Origin: Alphaproteobacteria bacterium LSUCC0396 | GTDB taxonomy: Bacteria; Pseudomonadota; Alphaproteobacteria; Puniceispirillales; Puniceispirillaceae | Direction: 5' to 3' | DNA length: 64,000 nt | NCBI GenBank assembly: GCA_041228345.1 | Contig: CP166131.1 | Location: 1,791,001-1,855,000 of the forward strand | In this document: positions 1 through 9,194 of the stretch, piece after piece | How the letters are laid out: each line of letters begins with the position of its first letter | Numbering within the stretch: the first letter of the stretch is position 1 | Position numbers and translations under genes: made by a program | The notes under the pieces: model-generated | Database searches by the model: none | What the model saw: the letters and a program-made list of their open reading frames with translations, nothing else | Told to the model about the DNA's origin: nothing

Positions 1-363
1 GAAAGGTGATCTCTCAGTTCGAACTACAAAAGAGGTATCGATGTTAAAAGATCGGTACATCCGTTGTTGTTGATCCAACAATTCAATGAGATTTTTACGA
101 AGGTCTTTGTTGATAGGTATAATTCGTCCACTGAGACCTTTAGAACTTCTATTAGTAAGATTAATATGATCAGACACTTTACCATCACTATCACAAACCT
201 CTTTCCAACTGAGTTGTGAGATTTCTTTAGATCGAAGACCACCTTTTACGGACAAAAGGAATATGGTTTCATTTCTTAAACCATTCCTTTTTGACCGAAG
301 GTAAGACCTCATCATTTCGATTTGTGATTTATTGAGTGTCTTTGATTGTTTACCTATTCCCAT
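1..363 (-). CDS. Small tyrosine recombinase / phage integrase, C-terminus cut by window edge
   Basis: The reading frame starts at ATG 363 behind a GGAGA ribosome site and runs off the left edge after 121 residues with no stop. Residues about 30-55 (RNETIFLLSVKGGLRSKEIS) match the box I region of tyrosine recombinases, where the first catalytic Arg follows GGL. The N-terminal SAM-like core-binding domain is very short, so this is probably one of the small single-domain recombinases of plasmids and satellites. No alanine is encoded in the visible part; family positions usually holding Ala carry Ser or Lys. It is the second recombinase of the element, distinct from the one at 3278-4504. The catalytic Tyr is outside the window. 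Confidence 0.75.
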   Translation of the reverse strand, partial: MGIGKQSKTLNKSQIEMMRSYLRSKRNGLRNETIFLLSVKGGLRSKEISQLSWKEVCDSDGKVSDHINLTNRSSKGLSGRIIPINKDLRKNLIELLDQQQRMYRSFNIDTSFVVRTERSPF

Positions 364-551
364 AATTTGTCTCCAAACTGATTATCAAATTATGGTTCCT
401 AATTATATCATCATCAGTTATTTTTAACACCCCTTTTTAGGTATTAAATTACTGAATAAACTCAATATTTTATGAAATCTGATTATACTTTGTAAATTCT
501 ATAATCAGTGGTCTATAGTTGGATTAGATACCATTTTTTTTGAGTTGTTTG

Positions 552-1133
552 ATGTCTGAAGATCTGAAGTTTACCAACAAACAAAAGAACATTCGTATGG
601 AAGGTGAGGAAGGTAGTACTCAAAACCGATTACGGTATGAACTGTACACCGAAGGTTTCAAACGAATTAAAGAAGGTTTGGAAGAAGAACGATACTTTGA
701 GGTGTGTTGTATTGTTGATTCAATTATCAATGATCGTCTCACAGCATTAATCCAAACAATTAAAAACGATGACGGTATCGATTACACCTACCAATCAGTA
801 GGTATGGTGATACGAACTCTGTTTAAGATTGTTAAAGAAGATAAGATTTTACTATCAACAGATTTTAGGAAGTTGATGAGTAATATTGAACAGATTTGGT
901 TACCTAAACGAAACTTTGTAAGTCATTCGTTTGTTGGTGTTACACCATCCAACATAGATTTGAATTTAGAGGATCGATTACAGATCGTAAAAGAATGTGG
1001 TGAATTGGGTTCTAAGTATTGTAGGGATCTGACAACTGAATGTGATAAAATGATTCACATCATCAAAAATTACGGAATTCCATACAAAACCCCATTCAGT
1101 AATAGAAAATCAAATACTGAATGGGATACGTAA
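552..1133 (+). CDS. HEPN-like hypothetical protein
   Basis: The protein has 193 residues and is the only plus-strand gene in the visible element. It is rich in helix-forming residues, with a run like RYFEVCCIVDSIINDRL followed by KRNFVSH, which contains an R-x4-H motif. That is the hallmark of HEPN nucleases, many of which act as RNase toxins or defence effectors. The HEPN assignment rests on this motif and the helical pattern only, so it is an inference. It contains the single alanine seen in the element's proteins (codon at 744-746). Start 552 is the first ATG; ATG 597 is an alternative. It converges on the gene ending at 1134 with no gap. Confidence 0.55.
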   Translation: MSEDLKFTNKQKNIRMEGEEGSTQNRLRYELYTEGFKRIKEGLEEERYFEVCCIVDSIINDRLTALIQTIKNDDGIDYTYQSVGMVIRTLFKIVKEDKILLSTDFRKLMSNIEQIWLPKRNFVSHSFVGVTPSNIDLNLEDRLQIVKECGELGSKYCRDLTTECDKMIHIIKNYGIPYKTPFSNRKSNTEWDT

Positions 1134-1397
1134 TTATTTCTTTGAACCTACCAAACCTTTTTTCATCCGATTAAGTAGTTGAGAGTCGTTTGAAGAAACA
1201 CCAATCCCTAATCCACCAATATATGAAAGTAAGTTGTTCTGTTGAGAGATCAGATCGTTCTGTTTCTTTGGGTCAGTTTCAGTTTGAATCCGTTGTGATA
1301 AACCCCTCATTTTGAGTACCAAACCACCTACAACGAATTTTACCCATAGTGGATATTTACCTTCATTGATGGTGATAAATTGTTTGAAACTGTACAT
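1134..1397 (-). CDS. Small hypothetical protein (87 aa)
   Basis: I do not recognise the family. The protein starts at ATG 1397, directly after the TAG stop of the upstream gene, with a GGAGG ribosome site overlapping that gene's end. A short hydrophobic stretch (WVKFVVGGLVL, residues about 18-28) and a second Gly-rich one (LLSYIGGLGIGV) flank a polar Gln/Asn/Lys helix. This could be a small membrane-associated or holin-like protein, but the hydrophobic runs are short. It is the last gene of a minus-strand run 1954 to 1134 and has no alanine. Confidence 0.5.
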   Translation of the reverse strand: MYSFKQFITINEGKYPLWVKFVVGGLVLKMRGLSQRIQTETDPKKQNDLISQQNNLLSYIGGLGIGVSSNDSQLLNRMKKGLVGSKK

Positions 1398-1589
1398 CTA
1401 CACCTCCAATACAATGATGGTGTAGTTTTTTTGATTGGTAGTTCGTTTAAGTTCTTTATCGATCTCATCAATTTGTGAGTTATCAACGTAATCGAATTTT
1501 CTAATCTTTTTGACCTTCACCTTTTGTACGTAAGAATTGAGTTCTGATTTGGATAACTCAAAATTTTTGTTGGTGATTGGATAGATCAT
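1398..1589 (-). CDS. Small hypothetical protein (63 aa)
   Basis: A small Lys- and Asp-rich protein of unknown function. Its ATG (1587-1589) overlaps the TGA stop of the upstream ribbon-helix-helix gene as ATGA, which indicates translational coupling, and its own stop abuts the next gene. The tight packing is the main support that it is a real gene. It has no alanine codon. Confidence 0.5.
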   Translation of the reverse strand: MIYPITNKNFELSKSELNSYVQKVKVKKIRKFDYVDNSQIDEIDKELKRTTNQKNYTIIVLEV

Positions 1590-1954
1590 TTCAATTCACC
1601 TAACCTACCTAAACCACTGACGTCTGACCAATCATCGTTATGGTAGTCAGATTTTAATGGGATCATTGGTTTGTCATCATCATCAAAGTAACTATCCGTT
1701 GATGTAGTCGGTCGTTCTGATGACGGTTGGGTTCTGAATGATTTGTTTTTGTGAGATCTAAGTTTCACATCATTGAGGAGTGATTGAAGTTTATCATCCT
1801 CTTTGAGTTGTTGATGTTCAGATCTTAACCATTGTTCCATCAGTGTATTGATGATGGAGGTTCTACTAATTCGTTTGAATTTAACTAAATCATCGAATGA
1901 GGTTTTAAGGTGATTTGGACAATAAAAGGTAATGGAAGAACTATTGGTATTCAT
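1586..1954 (-). CDS. Ribbon-helix-helix DNA-binding protein
   Basis: Residues about 7-45 (SSITFYCPNHLKTSFDDLVK, then SRTSIINTLMEQWL) fit the strand-helix-helix pattern of MetJ/Arc/CopG proteins. The remaining 75 residues are polar, acidic and probably disordered. Such proteins act as copy-control repressors or relaxase accessory factors on small replicons, which fits the nearby HUH replication gene. It heads a coupled run of three minus-strand genes. Alanine is absent even in the helices, where it is normally common. Confidence 0.6.
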   Translation of the reverse strand: MNTNSSSITFYCPNHLKTSFDDLVKFKRISRTSIINTLMEQWLRSEHQQLKEDDKLQSLLNDVKLRSHKNKSFRTQPSSERPTTSTDSYFDDDDKPMIPLKSDYHNDDWSDVSGLGRLGELK

Positions 1955-1963
1955 TTTGACTCC

Positions 1964-2368
1964 TTAGTAGATCATAAACTCATCCAATGTCATTGGAGGT
2001 CGTTTGTTAGGGTAACGTTCATAAAATTCTTCAATGTGATAGGTTTCTAAATATGTATCTTCATCAACTGTTGGGTAGTTGTAGATAAGGACTGAAAAGA
2101 AATCGATTAACTGTTGTTCAGTAAAAGTTTTCATATCGTTTTTGAGATATTTGATCAGAGTTTTGAACTGTTTGAACGATATAAGTAGATTTGATTGTAG
2201 CCTTTCTTTGATGGTTATCATTATGGGTTTCACATAGAAAATATGTTTCTTAGAGATATAAATAGTTAAGTGTTTACGGAGTACAGATGATCTGTGTTGG
2301 TACTGTTCTTCGTTAACAGTTTGATGGTGGGTAGGTGGTTTTTGATAAGGTTGTGATAGACTATTCAT
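1964..2368 (-). CDS. Hypothetical protein (134 aa) of the integrated element
   Basis: I do not recognise the family. The N-terminal 40 residues are Gln/His-rich and low complexity. The rest looks helical with a basic centre (TIKERLQSNLLISFKQFKTL) and an acidic, Tyr-rich C-terminus. It ends 9 bp before the ribbon-helix-helix gene start, so the two are probably co-transcribed. One of the element's two GpC dinucleotides falls here, at the codon junction AGG-CTA (2200-2201). There is no strong ribosome site at ATG 2368, so an internal Met may be the true start. Confidence 0.45.
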   Translation of the reverse strand: MNSLSQPYQKPPTHHQTVNEEQYQHRSSVLRKHLTIYISKKHIFYVKPIMITIKERLQSNLLISFKQFKTLIKYLKNDMKTFTEQQLIDFFSVLIYNYPTVDEDTYLETYHIEEFYERYPNKRPPMTLDEFMIY

Positions 2369-2485
2369 TTGGTATTCTTTCGTTTGGTTATTAGATTTTT
2401 GATACTGTTGATGAATAAAGTGTTGTTGGTTCCAACACCTTTCACCGTACTTAGAAATGTTGATATCGATTGGGTGGTAGGAAAT

Positions 2486-2983
2486 TTATTTCGACAAACC
2501 AATGTGTGTATTTTCCCAATCGATATCAGACATAAGATCGATCTTCGATCTGTCTTTTAAGAGGTAATCTAACCAACCATCAGAATAGATTTTACGAACA
2601 TCTGTATGGTGATAACCGAATGAAGTCTTTGACCAACATTCGTTGATTACCTCTTTGAATTCATCAAATTGGAGACGATTAGGTTTTTCTAAAATCAAAT
2701 GAATGTGAGGTCGTTTGGTATGGGGAGAAACTTCCATCACTACAAATGACTTCAATCGTTTTCCGTATCGATGAAAACTGTTTTTGAAGGTGTATTGGTT
2801 AATTCGGTTCAGAAAATGTTTGGTGTTTTGTATTGATCTGATCTTATCGTTCCAACACTTAGTTTCATCTTTACCGATGAAGTATTTCTTTTCCGTAAGT
2901 GTCACCGACAGTGGTTCGTTGAACTGAACATTCGATAAGAATTCGTAGATTTTTGTTCTTTTGTAATCCTTCTGATCAATCAT
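2486..2983 (-). CDS. HUH-family replication initiator (rolling-circle Rep-like)
   Basis: This 165-residue protein shows the three rolling-circle Rep motifs in order: motif 1 PLSVTLTEKKY (residues about 24-34), motif 2 KRPHIHLILEK with the metal-binding His-x-His pair (about 90-100), and motif 3 WLDYLLKD, which supplies the nicking Tyr and downstream Lys. It would nick one strand at an origin to start rolling-circle copying. The length is at the short end for Rep proteins. The intergenic region 2984-3277 just upstream is the natural place for its origin. It has no alanine. A relaxase-like role in transfer is an alternative. Confidence 0.75.
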   Translation of the reverse strand: MIDQKDYKRTKIYEFLSNVQFNEPLSVTLTEKKYFIGKDETKCWNDKIRSIQNTKHFLNRINQYTFKNSFHRYGKRLKSFVVMEVSPHTKRPHIHLILEKPNRLQFDEFKEVINECWSKTSFGYHHTDVRKIYSDGWLDYLLKDRSKIDLMSDIDWENTHIGLSK

Positions 2984-3277
2984 CTTCTGAAACTTATTTT
3001 TAATTACACCTTAATTACCGTTTAATTATTTAGTTAAAATTATTTATATCGGTGGACCGTAGACTTTGGTCTTAGGTGTAAAAAAAATTGTTAAAATTTG
3101 GTCAAAATAGAAATCTCATTTCCTTTCCGAAATGAGTTTTTTTCCATTTCGGATCAGAAATGAAAATCAGAGGATCATTGGTGAATCGTAGGTGATCACT
3201 GAGTACGGTCTAATGGTAATAATGATGGAAACCATTACTTTTTCGTTAGAGTGACTCTACGATTAAATTAGGGATTG
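2984..3277. other. Intergenic region between rep and integrase with two hairpins; candidate origin
   Basis: There is no gene on either strand. It contains a perfect 8-bp hairpin with a T-run (3115-3143), a 7-bp inverted repeat TAATGGT...ACCATTA (3211-3237) and the imperfect repeats GGATCATTGGTGAATCG and GGTGATCACTGAG around 3172-3202. Its position directly upstream of the rep start makes it a candidate double-strand origin, but no nick site could be identified by eye. Confidence 0.35.
3115..3143 (+). terminator. Rho-independent terminator-type hairpin
   Basis: The stem CTCATTTC / GAAATGAG (8 bp, perfect) has a 6-nt loop CTTTCC and is followed on the plus strand by seven T. No plus-strand gene lies upstream of it within the visible element between 1134 and 3115. 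It either ends an unannotated plus-strand RNA or serves the minus-strand integrase transcript, whose exit side has a poorer U-tract. Confidence 0.55.
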
Positions 3278-4504
3278 TTAGTTGAACAGAAAATCAATCT
3301 TTGAAGGTTGATCTTTGGTGAATGAGTTTTTGGTAACTTCTGAAACAACATTGGGATCTCTGTTTCTGAGATGACCATAATACAATTCAATCATATCGAT
3401 TGAGGTACCTACATTTGATGATAGTTGGTAGATGTTTACCCCTTCCATCAACCTCATTGTGATGTAGGTATGTCGTAGTGAGTAAGGTGTTCGTTTCTTT
3501 CCATCACTATCGACATCTAAACCAACCTTTTGGAGTAGAGTGTTGAAAGAACCTTTGTAGGATTTTATTGGTTTTCCGTTTGGATTGACCAATACACATT
3601 CTGAAGGTGATGGTGGATGACCTAATTCTTTAGTTCTAAATTCATAAAGTCGTTTGAAGTATCTTTCGATACCAACATTACAAATTACATCTCTCCTATC
3701 GGTTTTACCTTTAACGGTAATTACAACTCTTTCATCACCAATAAGATCTTTAGTTGTGGAGATGTCTGACCACTTCAAACTTCTCATTTCTGTACCACAT
3801 CGGATACCACTGTTCCCTAATATGAGGACATACTGTTGGGTGTAGAACCTTTGACGGTGAATTCTACTGTTGGGGTGTTTGATCCACTCCCTCATAAATT
3901 CATAAAGTTTTCTCCACTCATCTTTGGTGAAGTCAGATCTACTATTGATCTTCAACTTCGGTTTAGGGATTGGTGGGACGGTGGTCAGATATCCTTTTCT
4001 CCTACCGAAATCGAAAATCTTTTTGAGTACGGTTAGGTGGTGTCTAACAGTTACATTTGAAAAATTGTTTTTGAACTGAAGTGAAATGAATGAGGTGATC
4101 AGATCTTCAGTAATTTCATCAATCGGTGTTTTACCAAAGAAAGGTTTTAGGTGTGATATCGAAATTTGTTTGTTACCATTTTTGTACTGTTCAGATTGTT
4201 CTCTAAACAAAACATCAATTTCACCAATCCATTCGTTAACTACTTTTTCAAATTGAGGTGAGGTGATTACTTCACCTCTTCGAATTTTACCTTCCAATTC
4301 ATAATACAGATCTTCGGAAAATCTTTTACCTTCGTTGAAGTCAGAAGTTTTAGTAGAACGAATTACATACCCTTTCGTATTGGGGATTTTTAACCTAACA
4401 TTCCATTTGGGATTTTTAAGGTGGGGTCGTCGATACATAACGATCCTACCGTCATTACGGAGATCAACATAATCATCATAATTCTTTGGGGTTTTACCTT
4501 CCAT
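3278..4504 (-). CDS. int: Tyrosine recombinase / phage-type integrase
   Basis: The 408 residues follow the standard plan: an N-terminal arm-binding segment, a core-binding domain (about 75-175, with FFGKTPIDEITEDLITSFI), and a catalytic domain from about 195. Catalytic elements seen are the box I Arg in LGNSGIRCGTEMRSLKW, the Lys in VKGKTD, the H-x2-R pair in YSLRHTYITMRL, and the terminal Tyr in MIELYYGHL. It lies beside the tRNA-remnant att site and reads away from it, as is usual for tRNA-targeting integrases. The whole protein contains no alanine: positions such as the box I helix use Met, Ser, Gly or Cys instead. The start at 4504 is the first ATG after the att region. Confidence 0.92.
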   Translation of the reverse strand: MEGKTPKNYDDYVDLRNDGRIVMYRRPHLKNPKWNVRLKIPNTKGYVIRSTKTSDFNEGKRFSEDLYYELEGKIRRGEVITSPQFEKVVNEWIGEIDVLFREQSEQYKNGNKQISISHLKPFFGKTPIDEITEDLITSFISLQFKNNFSNVTVRHHLTVLKKIFDFGRRKGYLTTVPPIPKPKLKINSRSDFTKDEWRKLYEFMREWIKHPNSRIHRQRFYTQQYVLILGNSGIRCGTEMRSLKWSDISTTKDLIGDERVVITVKGKTDRRDVICNVGIERYFKRLYEFRTKELGHPPSPSECVLVNPNGKPIKSYKGSFNTLLQKVGLDVDSDGKKRTPYSLRHTYITMRLMEGVNIYQLSSNVGTSIDMIELYYGHLRNRDPNVVSEVTKNSFTKDQPSKIDFLFN

Positions 4505-4646
4505 ACATCAATAGTAATTTAGATGAAGGATTAAGTAAATTTGTTAATGATTTGTTAATAGTGTTTTTGATTGATTTATGGTTGATGTAGTAGTTAAGTT
4601 ATTGTAAGTTAATGGATATGGTGAGGTTAGGTTTATAGAGAAATAT

Positions 4647-4692
4647 ATTCCTAATCTGTAGGTAGGGGGTTCGAGTCCCTCCGGGATCACCA
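4647..4692 (+). other. att site: displaced tRNA 3' end (T-arm, acceptor 3' strand, CCA)
   Basis: The T-stem GGGGG (4665-4669), the loop TTCGAGT (4670-4676), the T-stem 3' strand CCCTC (4677-4681), the acceptor 3' strand CGGGATC (4682-4688), discriminator A and CCA (4690-4692) are all in place. Upstream, TTCCTAA could be an anticodon loop, giving anticodon CCT (Arg), followed by stem strand TCTGT and a 5-nt variable loop. No D-arm or 5' acceptor strand follows the expected pattern upstream, so this is a remnant. The intact tRNA should lie at the other end of the element, left of this window. The base composition changes exactly here. Confidence 0.75.
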
Positions 4693-4793
4693 CAAGATCA
4701 AGCTTGGCCACATGGCTGGCCAAAATGGTTGATTTCAATCGCCCAAACCGTGTTTCATCGGCGAGGGATATGCCGGGTAATGAGGTGGTGAAG

Positions 4794-6306: not shown

Positions 6307-6394
6307 GGAGTTAGCTCTAAACAAGGCAATTGCCGGTAAGGGCGTGCGCCGGAATTAAATCACGAAGACCCCGCGATGATAGGGTGAGGAAATT

Positions 6395-6982
6395 ATGGAT
6401 CCAATTACATTTGCAGATGCAATCGAGCGCCAGCGGGCCAAATCCGAGGGCCCTGAAGTTGATTTCTATAAGCAGGCGCTTGAAGCCAGTCAGGAATTTC
6501 GCCGCGAATATCAGGATCGGCTGAATGTTGTCAAACACGACCAGATGCCAATGGAACGTTCGGCCGACGGTTTGATCAAACATGTGATCAATGAGCGGAT
6601 GAACACAAAAGAATGCTGTATCGACATCTATATGCAGTTTATCGCCGCTGGCAAAGCAACCGGAACCAGCCGTCATCTATCGGAAGAAATTGCCTTTGTG
6701 ATTGAAGGTCGCGGTTATGATCATCATTACGACGTGAATTTCGAATGTGACGAAAAGTTTGTTTGGGAATGGGACACCACCCCGAAAACCTTTGAGTGGG
6801 GGCCGGGTGATTTTATTTACGTGCCGCCATATGTTGCGCATAAACGCTTTAATACATCCGATGTCGAGGCGCGGGTCATTGTGGTGAATAGCCGCGTGAT
6901 GAAGGCGATTGGCCTTGACTGGTTTGACCAGTTGGAACCTGCCGAAGGGTTCGAGGATGTTTGGCAGCCGCCAGCAGACTAG
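6395..6982 (+). CDS. Cupin-domain protein B (copy 1)
   Basis: A 195-residue single-cupin protein. Motif 1 is SRHLSEEIAFVIEGRGYDHH, and motif 2 is GDFIYVPPYVAHKRFN. It is paralogous to 27930-28532 (shared GLIKH-N-ERMNT segment, EGxGYD, FEW-GDxIYVPP). The pairing with cupin A in both cassettes suggests the two act together, perhaps as a heteromer. In this copy the second motif has AHKRF where the other copy has IHQHF, so one metal-proximal His is replaced by Arg. The start ATG 6395 has GAGGA upstream. The function is not established. Confidence 0.8.
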   Translation: MDPITFADAIERQRAKSEGPEVDFYKQALEASQEFRREYQDRLNVVKHDQMPMERSADGLIKHVINERMNTKECCIDIYMQFIAAGKATGTSRHLSEEIAFVIEGRGYDHHYDVNFECDEKFVWEWDTTPKTFEWGPGDFIYVPPYVAHKRFNTSDVEARVIVVNSRVMKAIGLDWFDQLEPAEGFEDVWQPPAD

Positions 6983-7065
6983 ATGACAGATTCTGCTCCA
7001 TCCCGGCATCGTCAGGCCCGTACTCCTGATGCTGTTTATGTTTCCCAGCGTGCGCTTAACGGTGT

Positions 7066-7983
7066 GTGGTGGTGAGTGAAGCGCTGCTTGGGCAGGGATT
7101 GGCGCTTGCCTCGGCCTTCTGCTTTGCGGTTGCGAATGTATTGATCGCCCGCTCGTCCGGGCGGCGTGACAGCCGCGGCGTGGTGTTTTCAGTGCTTGTC
7201 ACGGCAGTGTTTGCTGCGGTGATTTGGCTGGCCACCGAAAGCCTCGATATGCAGGCGGTTGCTAGTACGTCATGGTGGAAGGGCGTTGCCCTTTATGCGC
7301 TTGCCGGTGTTTTATCGATGGTTGTCGGGCGCAGTTTCCTGTATACATCAGTGCGCCGTCTTGGCGTCGTAAGATCATCCACGGTTAAGCGGATGAATCC
7401 GTTTTTTTCATCTTTGCTTGCGTTTCTAATCCTGGGTGAAGCGATCACCATGGTTGGTGCTGCTGGCATGGCGGTGTTGTTATTTGCCTTTTTGCTAATG
7501 ATGCGGGAAAGCGCAAAAAATCAGCAGACTGGTGATGATGCGCCGCCGCCAGTTTGGGATTACAGCTTTGGTGTTCTCTCAGCGCTGGCCTATGGTAGTG
7601 CTTATATTTTTCGTAAATTTGGTATTTTTGAATTACCATATCCGGCGTTCGGCACCTTTATAAGTGCGGTAACGGGTCTTGCCGCGTTTTTGCTGGCGGG
7701 GCTTCTCGTCAAATCCTTGCGCGGCCGGCTAACCGGCATTTTCACAGATCTTGATCGCTGGATGATTATGGCCAGCATCGCTGTCTCGCTGGGACAGATT
7801 CTGTTCTTTGCCGCAATTGTTTATGAGACTGTGATTGTTGTTGTGATGATCGCATCATTAGAGATATTTATTGCTAGCTACCTATCAATTTTCGTGTTTA
7901 GGTTGGAGCGTAAAATGAGCGGCAGCATGGTGGTTGCATCGATTTTTGCTTTTACTGGTGTCATTTTGATAACTCTAGGCTAG
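7066..7983 (+). CDS. DMT-superfamily (EamA) permease, copy 1
   Basis: About 305 residues form roughly ten hydrophobic segments in two EamA repeats (about 8-145 and 165-300). The first repeat has the usual ...NPFFSSLLAFLILGEAIT signature. It lies directly behind the cupin A/B genes, and a paralogue follows the second cupin A/B cassette (26944-27930). It probably moves a metabolite across the inner membrane. It starts at one of three tandem GTG codons (7066, 7069, 7072), with no ATG available nearby. Confidence 0.8.
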   Translation: MVVSEALLGQGLALASAFCFAVANVLIARSSGRRDSRGVVFSVLVTAVFAAVIWLATESLDMQAVASTSWWKGVALYALAGVLSMVVGRSFLYTSVRRLGVVRSSTVKRMNPFFSSLLAFLILGEAITMVGAAGMAVLLFAFLLMMRESAKNQQTGDDAPPPVWDYSFGVLSALAYGSAYIFRKFGIFELPYPAFGTFISAVTGLAAFLLAGLLVKSLRGRLTGIFTDLDRWMIMASIAVSLGQILFFAAIVYETVIVVVMIASLEIFIASYLSIFVFRLERKMSGSMVVASIFAFTGVILITLG

Positions 7984-8007
7984 GTCCGTTTCATAAAAAA
8001 CGATGAT

Positions 8008-8062
8008 GTTCTTTTATAAAGAACGCTGTGCCATTGACGACTGATTTTATTTCAGGTTTACT
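8008..8062 (+). promoter_or_regulatory. Dyad operator and promoter of the first TTT transporter operon
   Basis: The nearly perfect dyad GTTCTTTTATAAAGAAC occupies 8008-8024. Nine bases later is TTGACG (8034-8039), and 17 bases further TTTACT (8057-8062). Spacing is identical to that at 5671-5725. The tctC-type gene starts at 8151. Confidence 0.6.
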
Positions 8063-8150
8063 TTTCCATAATAGAAGCGTTACCGCGCCCCGCTGAGCAT
8101 TTGTGATAGTGGCGGTAGGGATCGTTTATAATGTTTTTTGGGAGGAAAAA

Positions 8151-9194
8151 ATGAGACGCGTATTTCTGACGGGATTACTATCTCTTGGACTGGCGCTGCC
8201 AATGGCAGGGCTTTTAAAGGTTGCACCGGCACAGGCCGAGGATGCAGCAAGTTTTTACAAGGGGAAAAAGATCAAGTTTATCGTGCCCTACAAGCCCGGT
8301 GGTGGCTATGACGATTACGCGCGTCTTCTTGCGCCAGTAATGGAAAAGTACACTGGTGCTAATATCGAGATTTTGAACAAGGGTGGCGCTGGCGGTATGA
8401 CAGGGGCGAACGAGATTTTTCGTTCACCAAGTGACGGCCTCACGATCGGGATCATTAATGGTAGCGCGATGATTACCAATGAACTCGCAGAGATCAAAGG
8501 GGCCGCCTACAAGGTTGCGGATTACAGTTATCTTGGTCGCGTAACTGCCGATACTCGGGTTATGAGCACGTCAGTCGCAAGTGGCTTTAACACCTATGAG
8601 TCGCTAAAGGCGGTCAAAGAGCCATTTAAAGTTGGCGCGACTGGCCTTGGTGGGTCAACTTATGTTGATACTGTGATTATCGGCAAGGTGTTTGAATTCA
8701 ACCAGCAAGTAATCCATGGCTTTGACAGTTCTGGTCCTATTAGAAAGGCCATGAAGCGCGGCGACCTTGTTGGTATGTGGGGATCTTGGGGCAGTGCGGG
8801 TAAGTCTGTAAAAAGTGGTGATAACCAGATTGTGATGCAAAGCGGTAAGAAGCGTCACAAGGATCTGCCAGATACGCCAACCATCCGTGAGCTTGTGAAA
8901 GGCCTTCCTAACGCTGACCAAGCGATGAGAGTTGTAGTTGGTTGGGAGGCATTGTCAGCAGTTGGCCGGCCAATTGCGGGTCCTCCTGGTATTCCGGCTG
9001 ACCGTCTGGCATTCCTCCGTGATGCCTTTGCCAAAGCTGTGGCTGATGACGAATTCCTCGGCAAGGCCAAAAAGGCCAAACGGGCGGTTGATTACGCATC
9101 TGGTGAAGAAATGGTTGAGCTGACAAAAGAGGCGACTGATCTAACTGATGACGTAAGGAAGTTATTCGTTGCTGCAATCCGTGGTGAGCTATAA
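8151..9194 (+). CDS. tctC: Tripartite tricarboxylate transporter substrate-binding protein (TctC family), system 1
   Basis: A periplasmic solute receptor of 347 residues. The N-terminus has a clear Sec signal peptide (RR, hydrophobic core LLSLGLALPMAGLL, AQA cleavage at about residue 25). The mature part begins FYKGKKIKFIVPYKPGGGYDDYARL, the TctC signature. It would bind a carboxylate and hand it to TctA/TctB. The start is ATG 8151 with GGAGG 8 bp upstream; an in-frame GTG at 8103 has no ribosome site. It is first in the order tctC-tctA-tctB-iclR. The ligand cannot be predicted from sequence. Confidence 0.88.
   Translation: MRRVFLTGLLSLGLALPMAGLLKVAPAQAEDAASFYKGKKIKFIVPYKPGGGYDDYARLLAPVMEKYTGANIEILNKGGAGGMTGANEIFRSPSDGLTIGIINGSAMITNELAEIKGAAYKVADYSYLGRVTADTRVMSTSVASGFNTYESLKAVKEPFKVGATGLGGSTYVDTVIIGKVFEFNQQVIHGFDSSGPIRKAMKRGDLVGMWGSWGSAGKSVKSGDNQIVMQSGKKRHKDLPDTPTIRELVKGLPNADQAMRVVVGWEALSAVGRPIAGPPGIPADRLAFLRDAFAKAVADDEFLGKAKKAKRAVDYASGEEMVELTKEATDLTDDVRKLFVAAIRGEL

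Follow-up and report, generated by a model that had tools for sequence, protein, structure and literature searches.

Why should a stretch of a bacterial chromosome do without a dinucleotide that the DNA beside it uses freely? The question is raised by a 64,000-nucleotide stretch (the window) of the genome of Alphaproteobacteria bacterium LSUCC0396, G000:C1:1791001-1855000 in a one-contig genome of 2.59 Mb, for whose beginning a preliminary description had reported an almost complete lack of GpC. The observation is confirmed, and goes beyond that description: positions 1-4655 are the right half, as delimited by att repeats and length, of a 9,398-bp integrative element, which carries an HUH-type replication initiator (Rep) and a replacement tRNA and is inserted in the tRNA-Arg(CCT) gene of what appears to be a SAR116-group bacterium; the depletion continues upstream of the window through the left half (G000:C1:1786249-1791000, equal to L012:15249-20000), and a second palindromic word, CNNG, is missing from the element altogether.

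Two missing words and their cost

Over 1-4701 GpC occurs only at 744-745 and 2200-2201, exactly as had been read by eye, which gives an observed/expected ratio (o/e) of 0.015; the rough expectation of about 140 agrees with the 136 computed for 1-4692, and the base content is G 18.8% and C 15.4%, against an estimate of 17-18% each. CpG has an o/e of 0.84 in the same stretch, in line with the earlier argument that low GC alone is not the cause, and the seven GpC counted in 4701-4780 are there. In the whole element, whose GC content is 34.5%, 6 GpC stand against 276 expected; in 1-4646 there are 2 GpC and no CNNG, with 133 expected. The flanking chromosome has no such deficit: GpC o/e is 1.40 in 4692-64000, and among 7,983 1-kb windows of the host outside the element (2.09 of the 2.59 Mb scanned) the minimum is 0.85 for GpC and 0.51 for CNNG. 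The gap spans both strands, codon junctions and intergenic DNA, as had been claimed: one GpC is left in each of the three codon phases and three are intergenic, where 23 are expected, and 60 synonymous-codon shuffles of the element's genes retain a mean of 61 and a minimum of 49 coding GpC, compared with the 3 observed. Since the effect is seen on either strand, in every codon phase, between genes, at the att sites and, in the case of CNNG, even in a tRNA gene, the claim of a constraint at the DNA level, specific to the element, holds. A longer recognition word such as RGCY was rejected, since the 92 residual GpC in 11 stretches occupy 9 of the 10 NGCN classes (GGCC is missing): it is the whole word that is depleted.

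The second ban was found by a scan of words, followed by a scan of base pairs at each distance. The element has no CNNG, where 276 are expected, and none of its coding sequence contains one, whereas the same synonymous shuffles never retain fewer than 107; the stretch free of CNNG measures 9,439 bp and both of its ends fall within the two halves of the interrupted host tRNA gene. All other two-base words, with their bases up to 39 apart, have an o/e of at least 0.43 in the element, the lowest being GNC (0.43), which follows in part from the loss of GGC and GCC; CpG stands at 0.73 and CNG at 0.86. Since CNNA (o/e 1.25, 577 observed and 463 expected), TNNG (1.20), GNNC (0.94), AC (1.11) and CNNC are not depleted, the target is the palindrome itself. 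The ban extends to a tRNA gene: the element's own tRNA-Arg(CCT) gene (L012:15378-15454) has no CNNG and two GpC, and that of the related element L014 none and three, whereas the interrupted host tRNA stretch has five CNNG, and across the scanned part of the host 33 tRNA genes contain 2-10 CNNG and 3-10 GpC each.

The two words can also part company. L014 as a whole has 2 CNNG and 67 GpC, with 329 of each expected; L014:5441-8465 has 47 GpC (104 expected) and no CNNG, and two cargo islands contain 47 of the 67 GpC and not one CNNG (19 and 58 expected). Since these islands keep GpC without any CNNG, the two pressures are separate; in the related elements L019 and L027, moreover, GpC is purged and CNNG is not.

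Both bans are paid for in protein. In mechanically called open reading frames, alanine accounts for 1 of the element's 2,758 residues, and for 0 of 2,771 in L019, 0 of 815 in L015 and 0 of 541 in L016, compared with 5-12% in six host segments. At columns where unpurged orthologues mostly have alanine, 1 of 129 cells (drawn from five families, the CopG family having given no alanine column) keeps it, whereas other residues are retained in 22-71%; valine or threonine has taken its place in only 20 of the 129. In the glycosyltransferase GT2, the 21 columns with alanine in at least 30% of 82 viral relatives are now filled by S (5), C (4), P (3), V (2), F (2) and one each of R, T, D, K and E, so that valine and threonine make up 3 of the 21. 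The CNNG ban removes dipeptides in the same way. Those that would force the word, [HQP][VDEGA] and [TP][CWRG], are absent from the element (0/65 and 0/39) and from its CNNG-purged kin L014 (0/62, 0/33), L015 (0/17, 0/8) and L016 (0/12, 0/5), but not from elements that lack this ban, L019 (38/52, 23/24) and L027 (41/42, 13/21), nor from the host (332/339, 112/114). The 565-aa serine recombinase encoded by L019 has no alanine, nor has the 408-aa integrase of the element, and natural proteomes so poor in this residue bear on the question of how small an amino-acid alphabet a folded enzyme can manage with.

Borders, genes and relatives of the element

The right border (attR) is the 9-bp core ATTCCTAAT at 4647-4655, in the anticodon loop of the host tRNA-Arg(CCT), of which the attL copy at L012:15249-15257 is a direct repeat; no other word of at least 8 bases is common to the two element ends compared. 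The 3' half of the interrupted tRNA gene lies at 4647-4692 on the plus strand and its 5' half begins at L012:15218. On the joined flanks ARAGORN recovers tRNA-Arg(cct), as excision would do, to judge from the sequence. An integrase, direct repeats and a target rebuilt by joining the flanks, as are typical of elements that insert into tRNA genes, are thus all present.

The 12 genes are, from left to right, GT1, GT2, a 119-aa protein, a NERD-domain protein, a small tyrosine recombinase, proteins of 197, 87 and 63 aa, a CopG-like protein, a 134-aa protein, Rep and the integrase. The first four lie in the left half: the glycosyltransferases GT1 (553 aa; phrog_842, E 1e-16) and GT2 (482 aa; PF20691, E 3e-29, and phrog_842, E 9e-36), the 119-aa protein between GT2 and the NERD gene, and the NERD-domain protein (PF08378, E 8e-29). 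The second, small tyrosine recombinase (200 aa; PF00589, E 9e-8, and phrog_216, E 3e-13) has its N-terminal part in the window at 1-363 on the minus strand and extends to L012:19761; L014 and L132 have orthologues of it, and L028 a fragment. The 197-aa cargo protein (540-1133, plus strand), for which profile searches gave no confident family, carries the element's sole alanine, at the GpC at 744. The remaining genes are on the minus strand: the conserved 87-aa protein (1134-1397; in 5 of the 30 loci covered by our counts of gene families), the 63-aa core protein (1398-1589; 15 of 30, purged and unpurged), the 122-aa CopG/Arc-like protein (1586-1954; 21 of 30, with a weak Arc-like match at E 0.04), the 134-aa protein of a conserved 98-aa family (1964-2368; 6 of 30), Rep (165 aa, 2486-2983) and the tyrosine integrase (3278-4504; PF00589, E 5.6e-8, and phrog_1, E 5.6e-31), whose gene has no GpC. 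Rep matches PF23343 (E 9.9e-7, above the cut-off) and phrog_3584 (E 7e-5) and, weakly, Microviridae initiators (10 records); HxH and YxxK motifs, such as mark the initiator of an HUH rolling-circle replicon, were seen by eye, and their columns are conserved in alignment A1. The integrase is 79% identical to that of L014, which uses the same 9-bp core. Among PLSDB plasmids the integrase matches 7 records, all below 60% identity, and neither Rep nor a 223-aa protein of sister elements has a match at E 0.01; the latter (model mean pLDDT 74) has no fold match in the PDB at E 0.001.

For comparison we used 32 Rep-bearing loci, leaving out one weak Rep match (G660) and choosing by hand the stretch counted around each Rep; L019 and L020 share one genome. 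Ten loci are purged of GpC (with an o/e no higher than 0.20 in the counted stretch), 4 partly and 18 not. The purged ones are the window element (0.02), L014 (0.20), L015 (0), L016 (0.02), L021 (0.12), L020:1-2800 (0), the SAR86 locus L027 (0.08), L132:1500-7468 (0.18), L166 (0.18) and L019, with 0 GpC of 200 expected in 9,991 bp. Four of these ten, all in host family f1, are also purged of CNNG: the window element, L014, L015 (GpC 0/62 and CNNG 0/62, observed/expected) and L016 (CNNG 0/48, GpC 1/48). Partial depletion is seen in L031 (GpC 18/67), L039 (3/20.5, a 671-bp remnant), L165 (238/483) and L167 (260/367), whereas in the 18 unpurged loci only single 500-bp bins, for example in L032 and L035, reach 0.5-0.6. 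Purged elements occur in SAR116 bacteria (including G028 for L015 and G089 for L019), in SAR86, in one alphaproteobacterium (L016) and, for L166, in a gammaproteobacterium of the same order as the SAR92 genome; partly depleted elements, among them L031, are found in SAR92 and in a gammaproteobacterium.

Gene content places purged and unpurged elements in a single family, the commonest protein families (CopG, 63 aa and 223 aa) being common to both. In a Rep tree of 25 rows, several forks of which are weakly supported and in which L020 and L021 sit on long branches, purged rows are interspersed among unpurged ones: L014, L015, L016 and L132 lie beside the Rhodobacterales-type rows L026 and L028, L019 beside rows from Balneolales and Opitutae, and the SAR86/SAR92 clade apart. 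Gain, or loss, of the bans has therefore happened repeatedly. Among the type I restriction genes carried as cargo, purging ranges from strong to partial, with GpC at 7/65, 7/42 and 20/86 in L132 and at 46/87 and 60/102 in L020, which looks like adaptation in progress or the decay of an old ban; taken as regions, these genes (L132:1520-7468 and L020:2951-7754, PADLOC matches) give 34/192 (over L132:1500-7468) and 106/190.

Several other features of the sister elements were noted in passing. L015, L016, L020, L021, L027, L031 and L039 sit at the 3' end of a gene whose frame ends DQPRNLAKSVTVE and which we take to be glmS-like, and short serine-recombinase-like frames adjoin them. L021:3900-11346 is short of some four-base palindromes besides GpC (GATC 6/56, ACGT 2/22 and AATT 52/151, both strands counted). 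A protein of 67-68 aa is near-identical between L027:11019-11222 (SAR86) and L031:11124-11330 (SAR92), a likeness that suggests recent transfer between the two lineages. In the unpurged L018, at 6385-8393, a C5 methylase gene adjoins a restriction gene of the EcoO109I type (PF14511, E 2e-26); we considered this methylase as a guard of the unpurged element and set the idea aside, its neighbour making it look like restriction-modification cargo.

What removed the words

In our judgement the element has probably been purged of GC and CNNG by long, restriction-like selection, through agents that are probably phage-borne. The step from the bans to an enzyme is one that we infer. When excised, replicating or entering a new cell, the element would meet enzymes that destroy unprotected DNA, and each remaining word would lower its chance to pass; the host chromosome would stay unpurged by not being exposed, or by being doomed anyway. 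Each of the two palindromes has two fixed bases, which suggests that its reader is a dimer, and the enzymes would read one base per half-site. We favour an agent borne by phages and met during infection, the phage's own DNA being shielded by modification; the element would then have to outlive an infected and dying cell, as the chromosome need not. The idea put forward at the outset, that a host or rival defence reads GpC itself, thus gains support, if only in kind, because a second two-base palindrome is purged as well. Its companion, a GpC-directed methylase, fares worse in the form of a resident enzyme guarding the chromosome: PF00145 (cytosine C5 methylases) has no hit in the complete genome G000, nor in G015 and G023, and PF01555 has a single one in G000, which from its size we read as CcrM; the searches covered PF00145 in 22 genomes and PF01555 in 20, not type I methylases or other enzyme types. 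Resident C5 modification of GC or CNNG in G000 is therefore unlikely, and the pressure would act elsewhere.

The glycosyltransferases, with which a phage-borne agent would fit, link the element to phages whose DNA may be modified. GT1 and GT2 match a tandem pair (phrog_842) in two viral contigs, at L173:4284-6610 and L174:8602-10855, beside genes for a clamp loader, an SbcC-like protein and DNA polymerase, which gives both contigs a T4-like look. A further 24 phage records match GT2, the majority from phages of Aeromonas, Vibrio and Tenacibaculum; part of them are annotated as beta-glucosyl-HMC-alpha-glucosyltransferase and others as hypothetical, and GT1 has no match there. PF00303 has no hit in 10 viral records, L173 and L174 included, and neither a TET nor a GpC methylase is among the Pfam hits of the element's genes. 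Of 598 viral contigs with GT2 relatives, the 80 kept for counting are not purged of GpC (lowest o/e 0.77), which weakens a link to TET/GpC phages through TAGT glycosyltransferases. In six of these 80 contigs, which come from IMG/VR, CpG is strongly depleted while GpC and CNNG are at normal levels (CpG observed/expected 4/192 in L093, 7/158 in L063, 11/187 in L049, 57/664 in L101, 25/185 in L050 and 40/266 in L098); CpG is thus a third purged two-base palindrome.

Some findings weigh against selection by such enzymes. No agent has been identified, and we know of no enzyme that reads CNNG. Six GpC persist in the element, two of them inside its tRNA gene; the sisters L017 and L018, in the same host family, are unpurged (GpC 432/400 and 321/291), and the SAR116 phage HMO-2011 has no ban (GpC 1.18, CNNG 0.97, in the 50,000 bases counted out of 55,282). 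PF00145 was hit in further genomes that harbour purged elements, as fragments in G028 and G114, twice in G097 and once in the SAR86 genome G176, so host methylation is possible there. The glycosyltransferase pair is cargo of the window element alone (GT2 in 1 of 30 loci), and bans exist without it; 40 of the 80 viral records gave no hit to PF00145 or to PF12851, the latter searched without a positive control. No capsid or packaging gene was recognised among the 12 genes with Pfam and PHROGs, and scans of viral contigs with the Rep, 223-aa, integrase, 87-aa and NERD proteins found no relatives, so the element is at most a putative satellite. Finally, GT (1.09) and AC (1.11) in the element exceed the host values (0.73 and 0.69), and glycine codons lean to GGT, with GGT/(GGA+GGG) at 1.28 compared with 0.65-1.09 in five host sets.

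These last two points are what a mutational process would also leave, such as a GpC cytosine deaminase acting on single-stranded replication intermediates: an HUH Rep implies a single-stranded stage, and C-to-T change at GpC would remove the word. However, GA and TC rise alike from host to element (0.91 to 1.32 and 0.87 to 1.27), as is to be expected if GC is lost and its share passes to the other words. Across six elements the range for GT and AC is 0.88-1.18, and the replacements of alanine, so seldom valine or threonine, are diverse and in many cases require more than a C-to-T change. It is mainly the CNNG ban, for which a deaminase offers no logic and which holds even in cargo islands that retain GpC, that leads us to regard such an origin as very improbable, and the original verdict that mutation alone would hardly remove the word stands. 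Scarcely credible is a need of composition or structure (codon bias, low GC, packaging or regulatory RNA): low GC does reduce the expected counts, but the values of CpG, CNG and GNNC are far from zero and, with the shuffles, exclude base composition and codon bias alone, while packaging or structure, once proposed as a cause, predicts no two separate two-base palindromes, and elements of the same family live without bans.

Two further possibilities keep selection and change its agent. It is unlikely, though it deserves to be taken seriously, that the words were purged by restriction in other recipient bacteria, whether by restriction-modification systems or by modification-dependent type IV enzymes acting on modified copies, and not by phages. 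An element that ranges widely would purge the words of enzymes it often meets, and the protein shared by SAR86 and SAR92, a Rep family that spans several phyla, and a CNNG ban confined among the loci examined to host family f1, with a wider GpC ban, all fit; a type IV enzyme, moreover, needs no host methylase, in keeping with the lack of PF00145 in G000. Yet no host with methyl-protected GC or CNNG was identified in the genomes searched, and the type IV specificities compared do not suit. The site of McrBC is RmC, which would require depletion of AC, and AC is not avoided. A site mCNNG for SgeI is not borne out: an excerpt of PMC3874153 gives m5CNNR, a very short site around a cytosine, for both MspJI and SgeI, and CNNA is not avoided either. 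Quite improbable is self-avoidance, in which the element or its close kin would encode a nuclease that cuts GC or CNNG in a rival phage. Its attraction is the NERD-domain protein and the precedent of the satellites called phage-inducible chromosomal island-like elements (PLE), which use a sequence-specific nickase, NixI, against the phage ICP1 (PMC12409358, in excerpt); but NERD is found in 1 of 30 loci, the commonest families belong to purged and unpurged elements alike, and the host chromosome, which is rich in GC, would be cut too.

The bans point to an unseen bacterial or phage agent in the ocean, whose two-base specificity would be the shortest palindromic one known to us. More tentatively, this agent may be an undescribed class of nucleases, or of writer-nuclease pairs, that reads two-base palindromes (GC, CNNG, perhaps CG) in marine bacteria and phages, at a frequency that has driven mobile elements to remodel entire genomes and proteomes, and a tRNA, so as to lack the words; the outcome would be natural replicons with proteins that contain little or no alanine and in which entire groups of dipeptides are missing. 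In this element a CNNG count places both borders inside the split tRNA, and such a count can reveal further elements of the kind in other genomes. Since the missing word names the specificity to look for, the agent becomes testable.

The element among known systems

Like the phage satellites, PLE and the phage-inducible chromosomal islands (PICI) among them, the element is small and combines an integrase, its own replication initiator, a tRNA target, a replacement tRNA and variable cargo; tycheposons are a further comparison of this kind. In contrast to these satellites, it has no recognised packaging or capsid-redirecting gene and no sign of induction or of a helper, and composition bans are, to our knowledge, no feature of any satellite. 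Nucleases of the T4 type and the short-site enzymes of chlorella viruses degrade host DNA and spare modified phage DNA. Such systems would supply agents that kill unmodified DNA by short words; none was found here, and we know of none with GC and CNNG specificity. Burke et al. (2021) are said to have described hypermodification of cytosine by phage TET enzymes with GpC as the target word. The word is thus the same, and the TAGT glycosyltransferases (PF20691, the family of GT2) are named after TET; the CNNG ban, however, would not be explained by this, and none of the 40 GT2-bearing viral records had a TET or C5-methylase hit, TET being the search that had no control. The Charybdis elements, as presented in an excerpt of PMC12324425, are not recognisably the element of the window. 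In the open-licence literature we found no description of a GpC or CNNG ban, and a search on CNNG turned up no cognate enzyme.

A close parallel is restriction-site avoidance, in which longer sites are reduced. Such avoidance is in general already known: in phages and bacteria, palindromic words thought to be enzyme targets are under-represented, as an excerpt of PMC4687349 has it. The element resembles these cases in that its palindromic words lie far below codon-preserving nulls, and differs from them in that the words have two bases, are at or near zero, and have been lost as a pair, with an amino acid as the price. The removal of two two-base words, of alanine with them, and of one of the words even from a tRNA is, as far as we know, undescribed.

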